A stretch of DNA of 64,000 bases from Quadrisphaera sp. DSM 44207 (GCF_900101335.1 NZ_FNKA01000001.1:310001-374000); one strand, 5' to 3'. Shown: positions 7,753 to 37,331, counted from the first letter of the stretch. Notes: generated by a model from the letters alone, not told the origin. Numbers and translations: made by a program.

Positions 7753-8690
7753 CCCCCCTCGCGAGGCTGCTGCGGGGCACCGCGCCCGGCCCTGACCCGC
7801 ACGGCGTCGCCGCCGGCCGGGTCGTGTGGGTCACCGGGGCCAGCAGCGGCATCGGCCGGGCCGTCGCGCTCGCCTGCGCCGCGCGCGGGGACCGGCTCGT
7901 GCTCTCCAGCCGCGCCGCGGGCGTGCTGGAGCAGGTGCGCGCCGAGTGCGAGGCCGCCGGGGCCGCCGGGGTGCTGGTGCGCCCCCTCGACGTCACCGAC
8001 GAGCACGCCGTCCACGCCGCCGCGGACGACGCGGTGCAGGCCTTCGGCCGCCTCGACGTCGTCGTGCAGGCCTCGGGCGTCGTCTCCTACGCCCGCGTCG
8101 ACGAGCAGCCCCTCGACGTCTTCGACCGGGTGGTGCAGGTCGACGTCCTCGGCGCGGTGCGCGTGTGCCAGGCGGCGCTGCGCACGTTCCGGCGCCAGCG
8201 CAGCGGCACCCTCGTCGTCGTCGGCTCGGTGCTCGGCAAGACCGCCGCGCCGTGGATGGGCGCGTACGTGACGAGCAAGTGGGCGCTGCGGGGCCTGACC
8301 CGGGTGATGCAGGTCGAGAACCGCGACCTGCGCGACGTGCACGTCACCCTCGTCTCCCCCGGCGGGGTGGACACGCCCATCTACGACCAGGCCGCCAACT
8401 TCGTCGGGCGCCGCCCGCGCCCGCCCTTCCCGGTCGCCTCGCCGCAGGACGTCGCGGCGAAGGTGCTGCACGCCGTCGAGCGGCCGCACCGCGAGCTCGA
8501 CGTCGGCTGGGCGAACCCGTTCGTGGTCGCCGGGTTCGTCCTCCTCCCCGCCGTCTACGACGCCCTGGTCACCCCCCTGATGCGGGTGGCGAGCTTCACC
8601 CCGCGCCGCACGGGGCCGACGACGGGCAACGTCCACGCCCCCCGCCCGGAGCTGGAGCGCCTGCGCCAGGACCGCGGGCGGCGCCGCTGA
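7734..8690 (+). CDS. Short-chain dehydrogenase/reductase (SDR)
   Basis: This 318-residue NAD(P)-dependent oxidoreductase has the classical SDR layout. GASSGIG of the Rossmann fold lies near residue 36, a catalytic Ser in VVGSVLGK near 165, and YVTSK (Tyr and Lys) near 178. VSPGGVDTP follows the active site. The C-terminal extension of about 70 residues, with hydrophobic [17 protein letters not shown], resembles membrane-associated SDRs of unknown substrate. The GTG has GGAGG upstream. The gene is followed by glbO with 58 nt between them, and glbO has its own promoter. Confidence 0.88.
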
Positions 8691-19577: not shown

Positions 19578-21284
19578 TCAGCGGGGTGCGGCGGCGTCCA
19601 GCAGCTCGCGGGTGCGCCGGTGCTGGGCGAGGACCGCGGCGACGGCGTCGAGGAGGCGCTCGCGGGCCACGGCGCCGATCGCCTCGCGCAGCCGCGCCTC
19701 CACCCGCCGCCGCCGGCGGCGGGCCCGGCGCCGCACCAGCGGAGCGCACAGCGCCGCCAGTGCGATGCCGGCCAGCGCGCCCCCGAGGAGGAGCAGGGTG
19801 GGCACCGGCACGTCGAACGGGTCCGCGCCGACGCGCGGCACGGGCGGCTGCGGCAGCTGCAGCCACGCCAGCAGGCCCATCGCGCCCAGCCACACGGCCC
19901 CGACGACGACGGCCGCGGCCAGCAGCAGCTGCAGCGCCGAGACGAGCGCGTACCAGCGCGGCGGCGGGCTCGTCAGGTCCACCGACTGCACCGCCTGGTC
20001 CAGGGCGTCGGCGAGGTCGTCGACGGCCGGCGCCGCGGCGGCGCGCACCGCGTCGGCCCACCGCTGCGGCAGCTCGGCGGCCGCGGCCCCCGCCACCGCC
20101 CGCGCCGCGGTCGCGACCTGGGCGCGCTGGGCGGGCGTCGGGTCGGGCAGCGAGGAGCGCTGCAGGCGGCGCAGCGCCTCCTCGACCTCCTCGTCCCGGG
20201 CAGCTCGCCCGGCCCGGCCGCCCTCCTGCCGCTCGGCCAGGTGCAGGCGACGCAGCGGGTCCGGGCGCAGGCGCCGGGCCCAGCGGGTGAACGGCCAGCC
20301 TGTGCTGGCCCGCCCCCGGCGCACCTCGGAGGCGCGGACGGCGTCCAGCACGGTCGGCACCCCGGCGGCGCGCGCCAGGGCGTCGACGAGCTGGTCCGCG
20401 CCGGGCGCGCGCGCCGGGTCCGGCTCGGTGGGCGCGACGCCGGCGCGCAGGCGCGAGACCGCGTGCGCGAGGTCGGCCTCGGTGCGCTGGGTCGCTGCCG
20501 TGCGGGCCTGCACGATCCCGGTCAGCAGGTCGCGCAGGGCGGGCACCCCGACGCCGGTGCGCGCGGAGGCGCGCAGCAGCCGCACCCGCGTCAGCCCGTC
20601 GGCGTCCAGCAGCCGGCGCAGGTCGGCCTCGCAGGCGTCGGCCTCCTCCGGGGTCAGCGTGTCGACCTGGTTGAGCACGACGAGGACGACGCCCTGGTGG
20701 TCGACGAGGTGGCGCAGGTAGCCGGCGTGCAGCGCGGCGTCGGCGTACTTCTGCGGGTCGACCACCCACACCAGCAGGTCCACCAGGCCGACGAGGCGGT
20801 CCACCTGCAGGCGGTGGGAGACGGCGGTGGAGTCGTGGTCGGGCAGGTCCAGCAGCACCAGCCCGGACAGCGGGGCCTCGGTGTCGGCGTCGAGCACGCT
20901 CACCCGCTCGGTGCGGTGCCGGCGCGGCACCTCCAGCCAGTCGAGGAGGGACTCGGGCACGTCGCCCCACGTGCACGCCGTGGGCGCGGACGTCGTCGGC
21001 CGGCGCACCCCGACGCGGGAGACCTCCAGGCCCGCGAGGGCGTTGAACAGGCTCGACTTGCCACTGCCGGTGGCGCCGGCGAGCGCGACCACCGAGGCGT
21101 CGGCCGCCGCGCCGTCCCGGAAGCGCTCGCGCGCGCGGGCGAGGACCACGCGGGCGGCCGCGACGGCGTCCGGGTCGAGGCGCTCGCCGCCGACCTCGAG
21201 CGCCTCCTGCAGCGCGGACAGCGCACGGGGCAGGCCCGCGGCGGCGGCGTCGGCGCGGCGCGCCGCGGTCGACGCGCTGCTCAC
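19578..21284 (-). CDS. Dynamin-like / YfjP-type membrane GTPase, second of a coupled pair
   Basis: This 568-residue protein has a P-loop GATGSGKSSLFNALAG near residue 64, a switch DLPDHDS with the acidic G3 motif, and NQVD as G4. C-terminal to the GTPase lie long helices and two hydrophobic segments, YALVSALQLLLAAAVVVGAVWLG near 430 and VPTLLLLGGALAGIALAAL near 485. An Arg-rich cytoplasmic segment (RRRARRRRRR) follows. This is the layout of membrane-bound dynamin-like GTPases that work in pairs in actinobacteria, with proposed roles in membrane repair and fission. The GTG overlaps the stop of the partner gene (GTGA). Confidence 0.85.
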   Translation of the reverse strand: MSSASTAARRADAAAAGLPRALSALQEALEVGGERLDPDAVAAARVVLARARERFRDGAAADASVVALAGATGSGKSSLFNALAGLEVSRVGVRRPTTSAPTACTWGDVPESLLDWLEVPRRHRTERVSVLDADTEAPLSGLVLLDLPDHDSTAVSHRLQVDRLVGLVDLLVWVVDPQKYADAALHAGYLRHLVDHQGVVLVVLNQVDTLTPEEADACEADLRRLLDADGLTRVRLLRASARTGVGVPALRDLLTGIVQARTAATQRTEADLAHAVSRLRAGVAPTEPDPARAPGADQLVDALARAAGVPTVLDAVRASEVRRGRASTGWPFTRWARRLRPDPLRRLHLAERQEGGRAGRAARDEEVEEALRRLQRSSLPDPTPAQRAQVATAARAVAGAAAAELPQRWADAVRAAAAPAVDDLADALDQAVQSVDLTSPPPRWYALVSALQLLLAAAVVVGAVWLGAMGLLAWLQLPQPPVPRVGADPFDVPVPTLLLLGGALAGIALAALCAPLVRRRARRRRRRVEARLREAIGAVARERLLDAVAAVLAQHRRTRELLDAAAPR

Positions 21285-23260
21285 GCCTCCGCTCCGTCCT
21301 GCCCCGCGGCGCCGTCCTGTTCTGCACCGTCCTGCTCGGCGCCGTCCTGCTCGGCGCCGTCCTGCTCGGCGCCGTCCTGCTCGGCGGCGTCCTGCTCCGC
21401 GGCGCTGGCCCCGGCCACGGTGCGGGCGACGTCGCGCAGGCGCGGCCCGTCGCCCGTGCTCGGCGGCAGCAGGGCGGCCAGCTCGGCCCGCTGCCCCGCG
21501 AGCAGGTCCTCCACGCGGCGCACGAGGTCCTTGCGCGCGGCCTCGGCCAGCTCGCGCACGGCCTGGTCGCCGAAGACGGCCTCCAGCACCCGCTGCGCCA
21601 GGGCCGCGGTGGCGGCGGCGATGCCCGCCTCCGCGCCCGTCAGGCCCGCGCTGCCCGCGAAGACGACGAGCATGAGGACGGCGCCCGCGCCGGAGACCCC
21701 GAGGGAGAGCAGCAGCGCCTGGCTGCGCCGCCCCTGGCCCTCCGCGCGCACGAGGTCCAGGACGTGCCCCTGCCAGTCGCGCACCAGCCGCTCCACGTCC
21801 TCGCCCGTGCGCGCGGGCAGGCGCGGGTCGGCGAGGCCGGCGCGCTGCGGCGGCAGGTGCGCCAGCAGCGCGGCGCCCGAGGGGCGGGCGCGCCAGCGCA
21901 GCAGCGCCTGCTCGCGGCCGCGCGCCGCGGCGTCCACCACGAGGGCCGCCACGCCCCCGGCCAGGGCCTCCCCCAGCCGCTCGGCGGGCGGCGGGCGGCG
22001 GCGCACGGCGGCGACCACGCGGTCGCGCACCCGCCCGACGGCGCCCTGCAGCGAGCGCAGCAGCTCCCCGGTGCCGACGAACTCCTGCCAGCGGGCGAGG
22101 ACCTCCCCGCGCAGCAGCGTGCCGTCGGAGAGGTGGTCCGAGAGCCCGTCGGTGGCGCCGGCGTAGGCCTCCTCGAGGTCGGCGCGCAGCGCCTCGACCT
22201 CCGCGTCCTGCGCGTCGGCGGAATCCGCGAGCCGCGGCACGCGCACCTGCAGGGAGGCCAGGGCCCCGCTCAGGGTGCGGCGCACGACGACGTCGCGGCT
22301 GCGCGCGTCGGCGGCGATCTGCGCCAGCCACGCGCGCAGGGGCGCCAGCTGCTCCTCCGGCAGCATCCCGCCGTCCAGGGCCGACTCGACGAGCGTGAAC
22401 AGCGGGGCGTGCTCGAGCCCGGCCTCCTGCAGCATGCGGGCGAGGTCCTCGCGCACCTCCTCCACGGCGTCGGGGGGCACGCGGTCGAGGACGACGGCCA
22501 CGGCCGTGCCGCGCTCGGTGGCCGTGCGCAGCACCTCCCACGGCACGGCGTCGGCGTAGCGGGCGGCGGTGGTGACGAACAGCCACAGGTCGGCGGCGCC
22601 GAGCAGCTGGACGGCGAGGTCGCGGTTGGCCTCGACGACGGAGTCGACGTCGGGGGCGTCGAGCAGGGCCAGGCCCGGTGTCTGCGCGAAGTCGGGCACG
22701 AGCAGCAGGCCCCGCGCCGAGCCGATCGGCGTCGCGGCGACCGCGGCGGTCGCGGTGGCGGTGGTGCTCGTCGTGCCGTTCGCGCTGCCGTTCGCGCGCG
22801 CGTCGCCGTCGCGCCAGCCCTGGGAGCGCGCGTCGTCCCGCTCGTCCGGGGGCACGGCCCCGGTCAGGCGCGGCAGGTGCGGCAGCACCTGCGGCGAGGT
22901 GAACCACGCCGTGTCGTCCGGGTGGTGCACGAGCACGGGCTGGCGCGTCGTGGGACGCAGCACGCCCGGCGTCGTGACGTGGTGGCGCACCAGGGAGTTG
23001 ACGAGCGTGGACTTGCCGGCCCCCGTCGAGCCGCCGACCACCGCGAGCAGCGGGGCGTCGAGGCGGCGCAGGCGCGGGATCAGGTAGTCGTCGAGCTGGC
23101 CGAGCAGGCGCGTGCGCTCGCGGCGGCTGGCCTCGACACCGCCGGTCTCCAGGGGCAGGCTCAGGGCGTCGACGCGCGCGCGCAGCGTCTCGAGGGCGTC
23201 GAGCAGCGAGACCGGGCCCCCCGCGGAGGCCGGTCCGTCCTCGCGCGCCGGTGAGCTCAC
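21281..23260 (-). CDS. Dynamin-like GTPase, first of a coupled pair
   Basis: This 659-residue protein has VVGGSTGAGKSTLVNSLVRH (P-loop) near residue 58, LLDAPDVDSV as the G3 region near 195, and VLDRVPPD in the G4 position. Helical stalk-like regions follow, and then a hydrophobic hairpin (LLLSLGVSGAGAVLMLVVFAGSAGL) near 515. The C-terminus carries a low-complexity AEQDG repeat (see the repeat at 21291). The paralogue lies directly downstream in the same operon. Co-transcribed heterologous pairs are normal for bacterial dynamin-like proteins such as DynA/DynB of Streptomyces, which act in septum formation. Assignment to DynA/DynB is inference. Confidence 0.83.
   Translation of the reverse strand: MSSPAREDGPASAGGPVSLLDALETLRARVDALSLPLETGGVEASRRERTRLLGQLDDYLIPRLRRLDAPLLAVVGGSTGAGKSTLVNSLVRHHVTTPGVLRPTTRQPVLVHHPDDTAWFTSPQVLPHLPRLTGAVPPDERDDARSQGWRDGDARANGSANGTTSTTATATAAVAATPIGSARGLLLVPDFAQTPGLALLDAPDVDSVVEANRDLAVQLLGAADLWLFVTTAARYADAVPWEVLRTATERGTAVAVVLDRVPPDAVEEVREDLARMLQEAGLEHAPLFTLVESALDGGMLPEEQLAPLRAWLAQIAADARSRDVVVRRTLSGALASLQVRVPRLADSADAQDAEVEALRADLEEAYAGATDGLSDHLSDGTLLRGEVLARWQEFVGTGELLRSLQGAVGRVRDRVVAAVRRRPPPAERLGEALAGGVAALVVDAAARGREQALLRWRARPSGAALLAHLPPQRAGLADPRLPARTGEDVERLVRDWQGHVLDLVRAEGQGRRSQALLLSLGVSGAGAVLMLVVFAGSAGLTGAEAGIAAATAALAQRVLEAVFGDQAVRELAEAARKDLVRRVEDLLAGQRAELAALLPPSTGDGPRLRDVARTVAGASAAEQDAAEQDGAEQDGAEQDGAEQDGAEQDGAAGQDGAEA
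21291..21403. repeat. 15-bp tandem repeat inside a GTPase gene
   Basis: The unit CGTCCTGCTCGGCGC is repeated about seven times with few changes. It encodes an AEQDG pentapeptide array at the C-terminus of the first GTPase. Copy number is likely to vary between strains. Confidence 0.85.
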
Positions 23261-23266
23261 GGGCAC

Positions 23267-23272
23267 AGACTG
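23267..23272 (-). promoter_or_regulatory. -10-like element of the GTPase operon
   Basis: Minus-strand CAGTCT with 6 nt to the GTG at 23260. Confidence 0.4.
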
Positions 23273-23360
23273 CCTGGCGGGGGTGGTCCCGTCCAACGCC
23301 GGGTCGGGGCGCGTCGCGCACGCCCTACGCTGCCGGTGCGGCGGCCGCGGCCGCCGCACC

Positions 23361-23433
23361 GCCCTCGTAGCTCAGCGGACAGAGCACCGGACTTCTAATC
23401 CGACGGTCGCAGGTTCGAATCCTGCCGGGGGCG
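23361..23433 (+). tRNA. tRNA-Arg, anticodon UCU
   Basis: Seven acceptor bases GCCCTCG (23361-23367) pair with CGGGGGC (23426-23432), with one G-U wobble. The discriminator is G at 23433. The D-arm contains TAGCTCAGCGGACAGAGCA, and the anticodon loop CTTCTAA gives anticodon TCT for AGA codons. The T-arm is GCAGG TTCGAAT CCTGC. CCA is not encoded. Base pair 27-43 is a C-A mismatch, and the other stems pair well. tRNA genes of this type are frequent integration sites for mobile elements, but no integrase is next to it. Confidence 0.95.
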
Positions 23434-23931
23434 CCCGTGATCACGTTCTGACAGCACGAACGCTGTTCGGCGACACCGGTGGTGAGCACGTACTGACCTG
23501 CCTGAGGCTCGTCGCTCGTAGAACGGTCACGGTGCTCGGCCGGGTGCCTCGGACGAGGTTCGCGCTCGCCCGCACGCGCGTCCTGGATGGGCGTGGTCAG
23601 CTCCTGGGGCGCGGGCCGGCTCAGCGGGGCTCGAGCTGCACCTGGTGCTCCGCCCGGTCCGCGGCGTCCTGGTGGTCCTGCTCGGAGCGGTCAGCGGCCG
23701 TCGCCGCTCTCCTCCATCCGTGGCCGGTGCTCGCGGCGCGCGGGCACGACGTGGAAGACGTGCGGCTCACGCAGGGAGGATGGACCTCGACCACCACCTC
23801 CAGCAGCGGTGCGCCGGGCGAGCCGCGACAGCGAAGCGCGCGCCACGTCCGGCGGAGTCGTCATCGACGGGAAGCGAGGGAGACCTCCCGCTCGACACCT
23901 CGCCCGCGACGAGCTGCGTGACGCAGTGGGT
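23434..23931. other. 498-nt stretch without a convincing gene
   Basis: Frames here contain stops or low-quality Arg/Ser/Pro-rich translations and no family motif. The only structure seen is an imperfect 16-nt direct repeat at 23437-23452 and 23482-23497 (GTGAkCACGTwCTGAC), starting 4 nt after the tRNA. The stretch may hold decayed coding DNA. Confidence 0.6.
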
Positions 23932-29042: not shown

Positions 29043-29179
29043 GTCACACCTGCGACGCGTGCCGCACCCGGCGTTGACCTCCCCCCAGCCCCAGCGGTTC
29101 CCTTCGAGGCAGGGCCGCCCCCAGCAGAGCGGCACACCGGCTCGTGGAGAGGACTGGAACGGGAAAGGAGGTCACAGCC

Positions 29180-31447
29180 GTGGACGACCACGCCCCCGGA
29201 ACCGCTGAGTGCGAGCTGCTGCCGGTGGCTCGCGACTACGACACCACGTACTTCATCCAGTACACCCCTCTGGTGTACGACTGGGACCCGCGTCGCTACG
29301 CCATCCACCCGGGCAGGCGGATGAAGGGGTCGAAGCTGGGCCAGGAGGCCGTCGCCGGGCACGTGGCGGGCGCCAGGGAGAAGCTGCGCGGACGGCCCGC
29401 CGGTACGGCGGACGAGTTCCGCGACCTGCTCCGAGCCGGCCGCTCGGTGCTGGGCACGCCGTGGTTCGTGAACGGGTGCCCGATGGACAACCCCTACTGG
29501 GCCGTGGGGCTGGAGTTCTCGCAGACCTGGACGTCCCTCGGGTGCAGGCGCGGCCGCCTCATCGGCAGCGTGCCCCTGACGCTCCACCCCGGCGCCAAGG
29601 AGGTCTCGGTCCGGTCGTGGGTCCGCCGCACCGCGACCTCGACCGTGACCCAGTCGCTGGAGCGGGCGTCGACGAGCGAGCTCAGCGACGAGGAGAAGTG
29701 GTCGCTCTCGACGAAGAAGGCCATCACGCGCCAGAGCGGCGCGTCCTTCAACCCCAGCGCGACGATCAACCAGGTGTCCGTACCGGTCACCGGGTCCATC
29801 CCCGTCGGCGTGGGCGGGAACCTCGGCATATCGGGGGACATCAGCAGCGGCGCCAACCGCTCCTCGGAGTCGGCGCGGGAGTACGTGCACTCCACGACGT
29901 ACAAGACGACGGAAGCCCTCAAGATGGCGCGGAACAGCACCGTCACGGAGCAGGTGGAGGAGGGCACCGAGACCACGACCAGAGAGACCACGGCGAACCC
30001 CAACAGGGTCAACACGCTGAACTACCTGTACTACGAGGTCCTCGAGGAGCTCGAGATATCGACGCGGCTCAGCTCGGTGGACCTCTACCTGTTCGTCCCG
30101 CTGCCCGTCGAGGAGGTCACCAACAGGTGGCTGCTCGAGCACGAGTGCGTCCTGAAGCCGCTCGTCGAGTGCGAGTCGCTGCGTGCAGGCTTCGACGCGG
30201 TGAAGCAGGAGACCGTCCACGAGGCGGTGTCCAGGCGCCGGCGCGCGGCGCGACGGGACTCCGACGGTGCAGCGACGGTCGGCGAGCAGCCCACCGGTCC
30301 TGACCCGAAGCCCATCGAGAAGACCGTCGACCGCGTCCTGGAGACGTACGCGAAGCTGACCGGAGCGTCACCCGAGAGTGGAGGCGGACCCGGGAGCTGG
30401 CTCTACTGGGCGCTCGTGGACGCACTCGCCCACGACGTGCGCGACGCCCTGGGCGTCCTCGACGAGCAGTGGGGGGCAGCCAGCGCCGAGGACGAGGAGG
30501 ACCCGGCGGAGCTCGGCGCCCTGCTGGACCAGTTCTTCACCGCGCTGGGTCCACCGGACGACGCCTTCCTTCCCGTCGACTCCGTCGTGGCGGCCATCAC
30601 CGCAGGCGCCTTCATCACCTCCCCCGTGGTCGCGACGATCCTCCTCTCGCTCGAGCTGGCGGGCATCGACGCCGCTCCGGACGACGAGGGCCTGCGCAGG
30701 CGCATCCTCGCGCTGCAGAACAAGTACGAGGCGTTCCTCGCCCCCGTGGTGGAAGCGCTGCCTCCTGCAGCTCCCCCGGCGCCCGGCGCCGGCGCGCAGG
30801 GGAGCGCCGGTGCCGCACCCACCTACGCCGAGCTCGCCCAGCAGCAGCTGCTCGCCGACGCCGCGCAGGCGGAGGCGGTGGAGGCCGAGGTCGAGGCGCG
30901 ACGGCTGCGCAACCACGTCCGTGACCACCTGATGTTCTACTACCAGGCGATCTGGTCCAGCTGGCCCCACGCCACCGTCGAGGAGCACCTGCGAGACGCC
31001 GGTGTCTCCGACCTCGTCGAGCACCGCTTCTCCGGGTTCCGCGGGTCGTACGCGGCCTGCCGCGTCCTGCCTGCTGTCGCCGAGGAGCGGGACCAGATCG
31101 ATGTGGGAGCGCTTCGCGCGGACCTCCTGACCCGTGCCAGCGCGGCCGATCCCCGGTACTCCCGGACCATCGCCGTACCGACGCCCGGCGTCGTGGTCGA
31201 GCCCCTCCTCGGTGCGTGCGAGGGCGGAGACGCCTTCGTCCAGGAGCACCGTGCGCTCGACCTGCGCGTGCGGGCCGCGGAGGCGGAGAGGGCCGAGCAG
31301 GAGGCGAGCACCACCCGCCTGGAGGCGGAGCGCCGGCAGGTCAGGCTCGACACCGGCGACACCTCGGACCCGGTGTCCAGACCCGCCACCCCCATCGGCG
31401 TCGAGCTCCTCGGGCGCCCGGCCTCCTCACCCGCCGACGACTCATGA
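29180..31447 (+). CDS. Large uncharacterised protein, first gene of an unknown two-gene operon
   Basis: This 755-residue protein belongs to no family I can name. The N-terminal part (1-120) is aromatic-rich: DYDTTYFIQYTPLVYDWD, FVNGCPMDNPYWAVGLEF. RLIGSVPLTLHPGAKEVSVRSW (about 125-147) leads to a Ser/Thr-rich beta region. A Gly/Ser stretch at 205-230 and ETTTRETTANPNRVNTLNYLYYEVLEELE near 265-293 follow. A hydrophobic segment lies near 475-500. The C-terminus (about 670-730) has PGVVVEPLLGACEGGDAF followed by a long Arg/Glu/Ala coiled-coil-like helix. It has two rare ATA codons. The start has AAAGGAGG 8 nt before the GTG. The stop overlaps the next gene (ATGA). Confidence 0.8.
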   Translation: MDDHAPGTAECELLPVARDYDTTYFIQYTPLVYDWDPRRYAIHPGRRMKGSKLGQEAVAGHVAGAREKLRGRPAGTADEFRDLLRAGRSVLGTPWFVNGCPMDNPYWAVGLEFSQTWTSLGCRRGRLIGSVPLTLHPGAKEVSVRSWVRRTATSTVTQSLERASTSELSDEEKWSLSTKKAITRQSGASFNPSATINQVSVPVTGSIPVGVGGNLGISGDISSGANRSSESAREYVHSTTYKTTEALKMARNSTVTEQVEEGTETTTRETTANPNRVNTLNYLYYEVLEELEISTRLSSVDLYLFVPLPVEEVTNRWLLEHECVLKPLVECESLRAGFDAVKQETVHEAVSRRRRAARRDSDGAATVGEQPTGPDPKPIEKTVDRVLETYAKLTGASPESGGGPGSWLYWALVDALAHDVRDALGVLDEQWGAASAEDEEDPAELGALLDQFFTALGPPDDAFLPVDSVVAAITAGAFITSPVVATILLSLELAGIDAAPDDEGLRRRILALQNKYEAFLAPVVEALPPAAPPAPGAGAQGSAGAAPTYAELAQQQLLADAAQAEAVEAEVEARRLRNHVRDHLMFYYQAIWSSWPHATVEEHLRDAGVSDLVEHRFSGFRGSYAACRVLPAVAEERDQIDVGALRADLLTRASAADPRYSRTIAVPTPGVVVEPLLGACEGGDAFVQEHRALDLRVRAAEAERAEQEASTTRLEAERRQVRLDTGDTSDPVSRPATPIGVELLGRPASSPADDS

Positions 31448-32913
31448 CCCGCCCACCCTCCATCGCAGCCGCCACCGCCCAGACGGTCGCCGCTGCGCGG
31501 CCCCCGCAGGACGCGAGGGCGGCTCACCCGCTGCTGCCCATCGCGCAGGCGGCCCGCCAGCGCGACCTCGACCTCGTCGAGATGGCGGTCGACGTCGGCC
31601 TGCCAGGAGGGTGGCCGCTGGCTGGTCTGGTCACCCAGGTCCGTGTGGCCGCTTTCGCCTACGTGGATCCGCCTGGCGGTTCCGTCGTGCTCTCGGTCCG
31701 GCAGCGGGAGGTCCGCCTGCGGTTCTCACCGCAGCTGAAGGTCGCCGCCGGGCTCGGTGGGCGCCTGCAGGCGACGTACGGCTTCCACGTCCTGTCGTAC
31801 GACTTCTCGACGCAGCAGGTCAGCTGCCCGGTCCAGCTCCTCGCCGCGGGGGACGACACGTCGCCCGGTGGACCAGCGGCTCGGGGAGCGCAGGAGATCG
31901 CGGACACCGTCGTGGAGAAGATGGCTGACAGGCTCAGGGCGGCCGTGCAGGCCACTCGGATGGGGCGCAGGGACTACTCGATCCTCACGGACCAGGATCC
32001 ACTGGCCACCGCTCGAGCAGTCCTGGAGCACTTCGTCCGAGATCCCGGTCGCTCCCGCACGAGCGCGCTGGTGACCCTGGCGAAGCTGCAGGAGCTGAGC
32101 GGTGCCGTGGACGTGCTGCGCCAGGCGGCCGCGGAGGTGGCAGCAGCAGCGCTGAGCAGCTGGGCGGCTCCCGAGGTGTCGTCCGGCCTCCTGCTCAGCC
32201 AGGTCCGCCTCCGCCGGGTGTCGCTGTCCTTCTCGCTGCTGCGCGCGGTGCGCAGACCGGAGGGAGCAGCCCGCGCCCTGCGCGTGGAGGCGGGAACGTC
32301 CTTGCAGGTGGCCGGGCGGTTCGACGTCGACCTGCTCACCCTGTCATCGCTGCTGGGACCGGTGGGCACGACGCCGGGGACGGCCGCGACCGTGAGCGCG
32401 GTGGCCCCGCGGCTGGGCTTCCAGGGCGTCGACCTCAGCGGAGCGGTGCAGGTCGTCTACGGGGGAGAGGCCGTCGCCACCCTGCGCGACGTCGGGATCA
32501 CTGCGGACGGAGCCGTCGAGGTCGTGAGGTGGGACCTCACCGCGAGGGGTGAGCAGCTGCTCTCGGCGGCGATGACGATCGGAGGGGTGGACCTCATCGC
32601 GATGGACCGCACCCTCGGGTCGCTCGTCGGCGCGTTCGTCTCCCTGCTCGCCTTCCTGGACGGGGTTCGAGCGTCCGGGGCGGCCGGGCGGGGTGCTGGC
32701 GCGGCGGACGCGCTGTCGAGGTTCCTGGCGGGAGGCCTGCAGCACCACGAGTCGCTCGTGGTCGAGCCGCTGGGCCTGCGAGTCCTCGAGTCGGAGGTCG
32801 AGAGCGCGCTCACCAGCGGACTGCGGCACCTGCTGCACGTCCACGTCGAACGGCCGCTCGGGATGACCCTGCGGCAGCTCTTCGGCCACGAGCCGGTCGT
32901 CAGGATCCCGTGA
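31444..32913 (+). CDS. Uncharacterised partner protein of the unknown operon
   Basis: This 489-residue soluble protein is of unknown family. Residues about 35-125 form a beta-rich region (VDVGLPGGWPLAGLVTQVRVAAFAYVDPPGG, SVRQREVRLRFSPQLKVAAG). A helical middle (about 140-230) contains VVEKMADRLRAAVQATRMG, and a second beta-rich part covers about 280-400. A helical tail ends LRHLLHVHVERPLGMTLRQLFGHEP. No signal peptide, catalytic motif or clear transmembrane segment is visible except FVSLLAFLDG. The ATG overlaps the upstream stop by 4 nt, so the two proteins are made together and may form a complex. Confidence 0.8.
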   Translation: MTRPPSIAAATAQTVAAARPPQDARAAHPLLPIAQAARQRDLDLVEMAVDVGLPGGWPLAGLVTQVRVAAFAYVDPPGGSVVLSVRQREVRLRFSPQLKVAAGLGGRLQATYGFHVLSYDFSTQQVSCPVQLLAAGDDTSPGGPAARGAQEIADTVVEKMADRLRAAVQATRMGRRDYSILTDQDPLATARAVLEHFVRDPGRSRTSALVTLAKLQELSGAVDVLRQAAAEVAAAALSSWAAPEVSSGLLLSQVRLRRVSLSFSLLRAVRRPEGAARALRVEAGTSLQVAGRFDVDLLTLSSLLGPVGTTPGTAATVSAVAPRLGFQGVDLSGAVQVVYGGEAVATLRDVGITADGAVEVVRWDLTARGEQLLSAAMTIGGVDLIAMDRTLGSLVGAFVSLLAFLDGVRASGAAGRGAGAADALSRFLAGGLQHHESLVVEPLGLRVLESEVESALTSGLRHLLHVHVERPLGMTLRQLFGHEPVVRIP

Positions 32914-36596: not shown

Positions 36597-37331
36597 TCAC
36601 AGCAGGCCGGCGTCGTGGGCGCAGATCGCCACCTGGACCCGGTTGGTGGCCTGCAGCTTGGTCAGCAGGTGGGAGACGTGCGTCTTGACCGTGGCCTCGC
36701 TCATGTGCAGCGCGCGACCGGCCTCGGCGTTGGACAGGCCCCGCCCCACGGCCAGGAGCACCTCGTGCTCCCGGTCGGTGAGCGCGGCGATCCGCTCCAG
36801 CGCCTCCTGGCGGCGTGGGTCGGCCTCGGAGGCCGTGAAGCGGCTGATCAGGCGCCGGGTCACCGCGGGCGAGAGCATCGCCTCCCCCGCGGCCACCACG
36901 CGCACCGCCTGCACCAGGTCCCGCGGGGGCGTGTCCTTGAGCAGGAACCCGCTGGCGCCGGCCTGCAGGGCGCCGAAGACGAGCTCGTCGAGGTCGAATG
37001 TCGTCAGGACCAGCACCCGGGGCGCGGCGGGGCGGGCCATCAGCGCCGCGGTGGCCGCCAGGCCGTCCATCCTCGGCATCCGCACGTCCATGAGGACCAC
37101 GTCGGGGCGGTGGCGCAGGACGGCGTCGACGGCGTCGGCGCCGTCGCCGGCCTCGCCGACGACGTGCAGGTCCGCGGCGCTGCCCAGGATCATCCGCAGG
37201 CCCGCGCGCACCAGGGCGTCGTCGTCCACCAGCAGCAGCCGCACGGGCGCGGCGCCCTCCTGACCCGGCTGCTGACCGGGCTGCTGCTCAGCCACCTGCG
37301 CCTCCACGCTCGCCTCCACCTGCTCGCTCAC
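36597..37331 (-). CDS. LuxR/NarL-family response regulator, second two-component system
   Basis: This 244-residue regulator begins with a Gln/Glu-rich extension of about 29 residues (VSEQVEASVEAQVAEQQ then PGQQPGQE) before the receiver domain. RLLLVDDDALVRAGL has the acidic pocket, VLMDVRMPRMDG the phospho-acceptor Asp near 83, and LLKDTPP the conserved Lys. The HTH is LTDREHEVLLAVGRGLSNAEAGRALHMSEATVKTHVSHLLTKL. The GTG at 37331 overlaps the kinase stop (GTGA), which supports the longer N-terminus. GTG 37244 would give a conventional start at the receiver. Confidence 0.92.
   Translation of the reverse strand: MSEQVEASVEAQVAEQQPGQQPGQEGAAPVRLLLVDDDALVRAGLRMILGSAADLHVVGEAGDGADAVDAVLRHRPDVVLMDVRMPRMDGLAATAALMARPAAPRVLVLTTFDLDELVFGALQAGASGFLLKDTPPRDLVQAVRVVAAGEAMLSPAVTRRLISRFTASEADPRRQEALERIAALTDREHEVLLAVGRGLSNAEAGRALHMSEATVKTHVSHLLTKLQATNRVQVAICAHDAGLL

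Follow-up and report, generated by a model that had tools for sequence, protein, structure and literature searches.

The window analysed here, 64,000 nucleotides of Quadrisphaera sp. DSM 44207 (GCF_900101335.1 NZ_FNKA01000001.1:310001-374000, from an assembly of 3.2 Mb in 4 contigs), contains two overlapping plus-strand genes, A and B. From its sequence, A is predicted to encode a divergent member of a family of effector carriers, and B a putative cargo or accessory partner. Gene A (29180..31447) starts with GTG and encodes 755 amino acids; gene B (31444..32913) starts with ATG and encodes 489. They share an ATGA, the ATG of B (31444-31446) lying on the TGA of A (31445-31447), and a ribosome-binding site, AAAGGAGG (29164..29171, plus strand), is located 8 nt 5' of the GTG of A. 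An earlier reading of this DNA, made without database searches and referred to below as the sequence-only reading, had described the overlapping pair and the strong site preceding it, and both are present as it described them.

The same reading noted two ATA codons and a lower GC content at wobble positions than in the neighbouring genes. A indeed contains exactly two ATA codons, and the GC content at third codon positions (GC3) is 0.923 in A (71.3% GC overall) and 0.886 in B (72.9%), in a window of 77% GC where most neighbouring genes with a trusted frame have values of 0.966-0.995, the exception being a reverse-strand kinase at 37328 (0.921). This composition signal is real but modest.

Membership of gene A in a widespread family

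Protein A had no Pfam match at E<=10, and B had only one sub-threshold match attributable to chance (E=0.063). Neither gave anything credible in NCBIfam or PHROGs or any sequence match in the PDB; the libraries were Pfam 2025, NCBIfam 2026 and PHROGs 4, the last for A only, with PADLOC applied to 15 family members. Profile searches against solved structures found no match for the family core or for its commonest tail group. The family is thus modelled by none of the libraries searched; it may have been described elsewhere, since preprints and the web lie outside the literature covered. The proposal that these proteins belong to no recognisable family therefore holds for Pfam, NCBIfam, PHROGs and the PDB and fails for A in sequence space at large, where its relatives number in the hundreds.

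Queried with A, 198 genomes of the source order yielded a single distant relative (G085, 29% over residues 112-352), and a plasmid search added a haloarchaeal relative. Searches seeded with these two sequences extended the set to Streptomyces, Nostoc, Polaromonas, Haladaptatus, Ruegeria, Psychrobacter, Sinorhizobium and others; with eight members as queries, a scan of 84,980 species genomes returned 244 relatives, of which 79 loci were kept. The family is spread over Nitrospirota, Pseudomonadota, Actinomycetota, Bacillota, Bacteroidota, Chloroflexota, Myxococcota, Verrucomicrobiota, Acidobacteria and haloarchaea, and no relatives were found when viral contigs were scanned with family members. 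A profile built from 59 relatives, with A left out, recovered A at E=1e-18 (scaled to 100,000 sequences) and retrieved nothing from 20 shuffles of A, from reversed A or from the other open reading frames of more than 300 aa in the window. Common motifs run through an alignment of 15 members, and A keeps the invariant family residues, within the motifs LxPxxxYPTE, SLPLAPGE, NYNHxHALTxxYYEV, HYSQAIW and GVFAEAVLGRCN. On this sequence evidence A is almost certainly a member of a widespread, unnamed family.

Occurrence close to the source is patchy. A is present in one genome of the 13 covered from its taxonomic family, and the protein family in 2 of the 198 genomes of the order and in 4 of the 396 scanned in the phylum, a scan whose loose first pass may have missed members. 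Together with the lower GC3 of both genes, this patchiness suggests that A and B were acquired by transfer. The transfer proposed in the sequence-only reading is thus plausible, and no empty insertion site could be demonstrated because flanking synteny is not kept in the relatives. An origin from a prophage or phage was considered and rejected, as A matched nothing in phage records or viral contigs. The sole phage-record match to a query with a family relative was a 20-kb contig from human faeces, unannotated and labelled 'Bacteriophage sp.'; the core relative that it carries (L026 1576-2193) may be on mislabelled bacterial DNA, the contig being unverified.

Constant core and exchangeable tails

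Typical members of the family have 1000-1500 aa. A helical part at the N-terminus precedes a core of about 600 residues, after which come a conserved FRDMSG helix and a C-terminus that varies between members. Domains that Pfam recognises among these C-termini are OmpA, HH_signal (Hedgehog), DUF4056, DUF2272, M15 peptidases, CHAP and SH3; the Hedgehog signalling domain has a peptidase-like fold. The cores of 60 long-tailed members formed one cluster, partly because members were found by core similarity, and their C-termini formed 32 clusters. In 15 pairs a core identity above 55% is combined with tails of no detectable similarity. Two tandem genes (L061 2941-6936 and 7377-11120) encode the same sequence for about 950 aligned residues and then diverge to 20-27% identity, which, judged from the sequences, looks like a natural tail replacement of the polymorphic-toxin pattern. 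They lie on one metagenome-assembled contig, where an assembly error is possible, although such an error would not account for the other pairs. A hydrophobic N-terminus was found in only 4 of 71 members, whose start codons were guessed. Another member with an OmpA-like C-terminal sequence occurs in an actinobacterium of the same phylum as the source (genome G479, L024 9105-13574), adjoining a fragment that resembles a maturase and a gene of recombinase type, all judged by sequence reading only.

Protein A lacks both the usual N-terminal helical part and the C-terminal effector domain. Its block 0 (29213..29281, residues 12-34, ELLPVARDYDTTYFIQYTPLVYD) aligns with the family motif PxDLxPxxGxYPTERVxYxxLVxD. 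A beta strand of 28 residues (29495..29578, residues 106-133), predicted by the model and the alignment, leads into GCRRGRLIGSVPLTLHPG, the version in A of the family motif GxxLGxLxxSLPLAPGE. It is followed by a Ser/Thr/Gly-rich insert (29579..30016, residues 134-279), modelled for the most part at low confidence, which is a candidate membrane-inserting tip and includes a stretch of 35 residues without charge (29732..29836, residues 185-219), identified by comparison with shuffles. The family motif NYNHMHALTxxYYEV, here NPNRVNTLNYLYYEV (29996..30100), runs into a second predicted strand of 28 residues (280-307). The strings singled out in the sequence-only reading, RLIGSVPLTLHPGAKEV, ETTANPNRVNTLNYLYYEVLEELE and PGVVVEPLLGACEGG, prove to be the forms in A of SLPLAPGE, NYNHMHALTxxYYEV and GVFAEAVLGRCN, and the hydrophobic segment and coiled-coil-like C-terminus that it listed can be placed at residues 469-497 and 692-720. 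The former (30584..30670) has a counterpart in the Ciceribacter relative, where the alignment shows hydrophobic, Gly-rich sequence between the corresponding blocks. Block 2 (30902..31249, residues 575-690) comprises LxxHxxxxxxYYQAIW and PGVVVEPLLGACE (family form LPTRGVFAEAVLGRCN), and A ends about 75 residues past it. The C-terminal helix (31253..31339), supported by the alignment and the model, is immediately preceded by an FxxxHRxxD motif, which stands where the effector-bearing tail would be, as in the two-gene clade described below.

Gene neighbourhoods of the family are not conserved. A link to contractile-injection or type VI secretion systems was rejected, as nothing recurrent appeared in 75 neighbouring proteins among the first 25 families listed, and Pfam scans of 15 members found no secretion leader domain. 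No downstream gene family recurs across loci; there are only small pairs such as the homologous 144-aa genes directly 3' of two members (L053 11133-11564 and L077 11209-11640), which are possible immunity genes. Another partner-gene arrangement is seen in Ruegeria (L010 10636-11634) and Novosphingobium (L018 8739-9977), where mutually homologous proteins of 332 and 412 aa (38% identity, no Pfam match) are encoded 3' of members, with overlapping genes in Ruegeria.

The two-gene clade and its proposed function

A maximum-likelihood tree groups A with members from Salinirubellus, Sinorhizobium mexicanum and Ciceribacter (support 100/99), and the four share the C-terminal FxxxHRxxD motif and helix. 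The missing exchangeable C-terminal domain is a trait common to A and this clade, and a same-strand gene lies directly 3' at 5 of 5 clade loci, namely those of the window, Salinirubellus, S. mexicanum, S. terangae and Ciceribacter. The next gene is of the pre-toxin TG type at three of the four loci other than the window: the PT-TG domain was detected in Salinirubellus and S. mexicanum, and the S. terangae gene shares 91% identity with its S. mexicanum counterpart. The Ciceribacter gene has no recognised domain. The sequence-only reading had asked for a match to a well-studied family or for a lack of conserved adjacency as grounds to abandon its proposal; no such match was found, and the clade does keep a gene downstream, yet B shares no homology with these genes. 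Short pieces of the clade protein (L019 near 8001-8138 and matches H35-H48, query residues 1038-1081) recur on plasmids of Sinorhizobium medicae and on one Ensifer plasmid and are probably remnants of a decayed copy.

Structure models were used to look for a mechanism. In the AlphaFold model of A (pLDDT 59) the two 28-residue strands flank the insert and are followed by helices. For L059, a typical relative, a core model built from 60 sequences (pLDDT 74.5) has the same two strands and extra strands in the insert. Its Foldseek matches in the PDB at E<=1e-3, namely aerolysin, lysenin, anthrax protective antigen, CytK, LukGH, Vibrio cytolysin and epsilon toxin, are all pore-forming toxins and reach E 2e-5, with a very poor alignment. 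A second aligner gave the aerolysin prepore at Z 3.1 only, so that a close match is unsupported. No Pfam match to an aerolysin-like family was found for A or 14 relatives, nor any PDB sequence match for a profile of 60 rows. The modelled likeness to pore formers would thus be one of local strand pattern and not a fold assignment. A likeness of a relative's middle beta domain to the diphtheria-toxin receptor domain was rejected (Z 6.3, below the level of trust); A is helical there. The uncharged stretch of the insert is longer than in shuffles, with a mean z of 2.65 for the family and 5.4 for A, and in A it alternates like a membrane strand (z 3.8), singling out A being a post hoc choice. The best viral match of the core model in BFVD is A0A5K0U6Q4, an uncharacterised protein of 642 aa from the giant virus Yasminevirus (E 5e-4, probability 0.99, low TM-score).

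These models leave a pore or translocation role as the leading mechanism, unproven. A pore-forming core is a tentative proposal that we regard as the less probable outcome, and the pore is offered as a hypothesis because the structural alignment is poor. In the proposed scheme the core, made of long beta strands with a Gly/Ser-rich insert and then a helical block, would be joined to an exchangeable C-terminal domain that often binds or cuts peptidoglycan; these large carriers, mostly without an obvious signal peptide, would take the effector to or across the target envelope, possibly through a beta-barrel pore. In the clade of A the tail would be absent and the payload a separate gene just downstream. 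Since the tail is missing and the payload appears to be encoded just 3', A and B may form a two-component (binary) system, with A as the carrier and B as the cargo or cargo adaptor. A function of the family in microbial conflict seems somewhat favoured, and the narrower reading of A and B as a split carrier-and-cargo version of the family used in conflict stands at about an even chance. That B is the cargo of A falls slightly short of this; its role is judged from position only because B has no homologues and resembles no downstream gene of the clade. A stronger formulation, that the core is a self-contained translocation module, possibly a beta-barrel pore, which serves interchangeable wall-targeting effectors in many phyla and haloarchaea without a known secretion machine and is present here in split form, is doubtful.

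Several observations weigh against the split-carrier reading. The model of A found no fold match in the PDB, the Foldseek TM-scores of the L059 core are about 0.1 or less (0.05-0.08 over the query) with an rmsd of about 30 A or more, and long beta hairpins by themselves could yield such matches. Over the whole family insert, strand amphipathicity shows no increase (mean z -1.2; 0.3 in the uncharged run). Neither an immunity gene nor an export route was found at the family loci, and the conflict function is a prediction for a family with no reported activity. The branch of A is very long (3.54), and its exact position in the tree could therefore be an artefact. B has no PT-TG domain and no homologue in plasmids, viral contigs, the 396 phylum genomes, the family tails or the neighbours; its matches at E 1e-3 to 1e-2 are short, and the best one contains stop codons.

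Of the three options raised in the sequence-only reading, the conflict-related locus gains from the single core with exchangeable effector-like tails and from downstream genes that are in part pre-toxins, and a structural complex or assembly scaffold is not favoured. A structural role would follow if the family consisted of envelope or cell-wall proteins of the producer itself, serving remodelling, adhesion or sporulation, with the core as a surface scaffold, the tails as ordinary wall enzymes or anchors, and A and B as a structural complex. OmpA, SH3, CHAP and M15 domains are known from housekeeping wall proteins too, and the failure to find immunity genes or conserved neighbours would fit. 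However, tails are exchanged freely even between otherwise identical tandem copies, the distribution is patchy, with the family in four of the 396 phylum genomes, few members have a hydrophobic N-terminus even allowing for guessed starts, and PT-TG pre-toxin genes lie 3' of the close relatives of A; this explanation is considered unlikely.

It is similarly improbable that the core is a carrier and B serves A as an immunity protein or chaperone. With no effector tail, A leaves immunity nothing to neutralise; a pre-toxin domain is present in the genes that follow its relatives in Salinirubellus and S. mexicanum, and at 489 aa B would be long for an immunity protein, although toxins usually have an immunity gene next downstream, B matches no toxin domain and lacks PT-TG, and the ATGA overlap fits a coupled partner. 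The long branch of A, the orphan status of B and the occurrence of the pair in a single genome of its taxonomic family would also agree with a degenerating or chance pair, in which A would be a decayed family member without its former payload and B an orphan of other origin. This is very unlikely given frames intact over 1244 codons, coding-like GC3, a strong ribosome-binding site, the overlap of the two genes and the retention in A of the invariant family residues.

If the split-carrier reading is correct, a large family of effector carriers would be absent from the profile libraries searched despite its presence in many bacterial phyla and archaea. How proteins that lack a leader but bear peptidoglycan-cutting or toxin tails arrive at their targets would become testable, and A and B would provide a small system with carrier and putative payload as separate genes.

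Elsewhere in the window, a minus-strand gene (21281-23359) encodes a GTPase-like protein, read by eye as dynamin-like, with a C-terminal tandem AEQDG repeat; it adjoins a tRNA-Arg gene (23360-23436).

Comparison with known systems

Polymorphic toxin systems, as defined in PMC3482391, share with the family a constant carrier region followed by many unrelated C-terminal domains and tail replacement between near-identical copies, and with the split clade the PT-TG pre-toxin domain. In contrast to them, no recognised secretion leader, RHS repeats or releasing peptidase was found in the family, no immunity gene was identified at its loci, and A itself has no C-terminal toxin domain, displaced tails being a property of the family and not of A. 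Because one core cluster carries many tail clusters and tandem copies bear different tails, the family appears, from its sequences, to fit the definition except for a visible export route and an immunity gene.

Broken-hairpin toxins, as described in PMC12419801, have a common module that is joined to nucleases and to a variety of effectors directed at walls or lipids; according to the authors it comes with no signal peptide, secretion system or immunity protein, and they propose that the module traffics by itself. Compared by description, the broken-hairpin module is short, C-terminal and a single arched hairpin, whereas the core of the carrier family has about 600 residues and precedes the effector. 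TANFOR polymorphic toxins, according to PMC7073777, are a class of large proteins in Bacteroidetes defined by an uncharacterised N-terminal domain. In this description they resemble the carrier family in outline, the described range of TANFOR being Bacteroidetes.

Beta-barrel pore-forming toxins, including aerolysin, lysenin and the translocation pores of binary toxins, differ from the family, which is known from sequence and models alone, has an extra helical block and matches them neither in sequence nor in Pfam. They resemble its modelled core in the very long strands flanking a Ser/Thr/Gly-rich insert, and binary toxins have a separate cargo gene, as is proposed for A and B.
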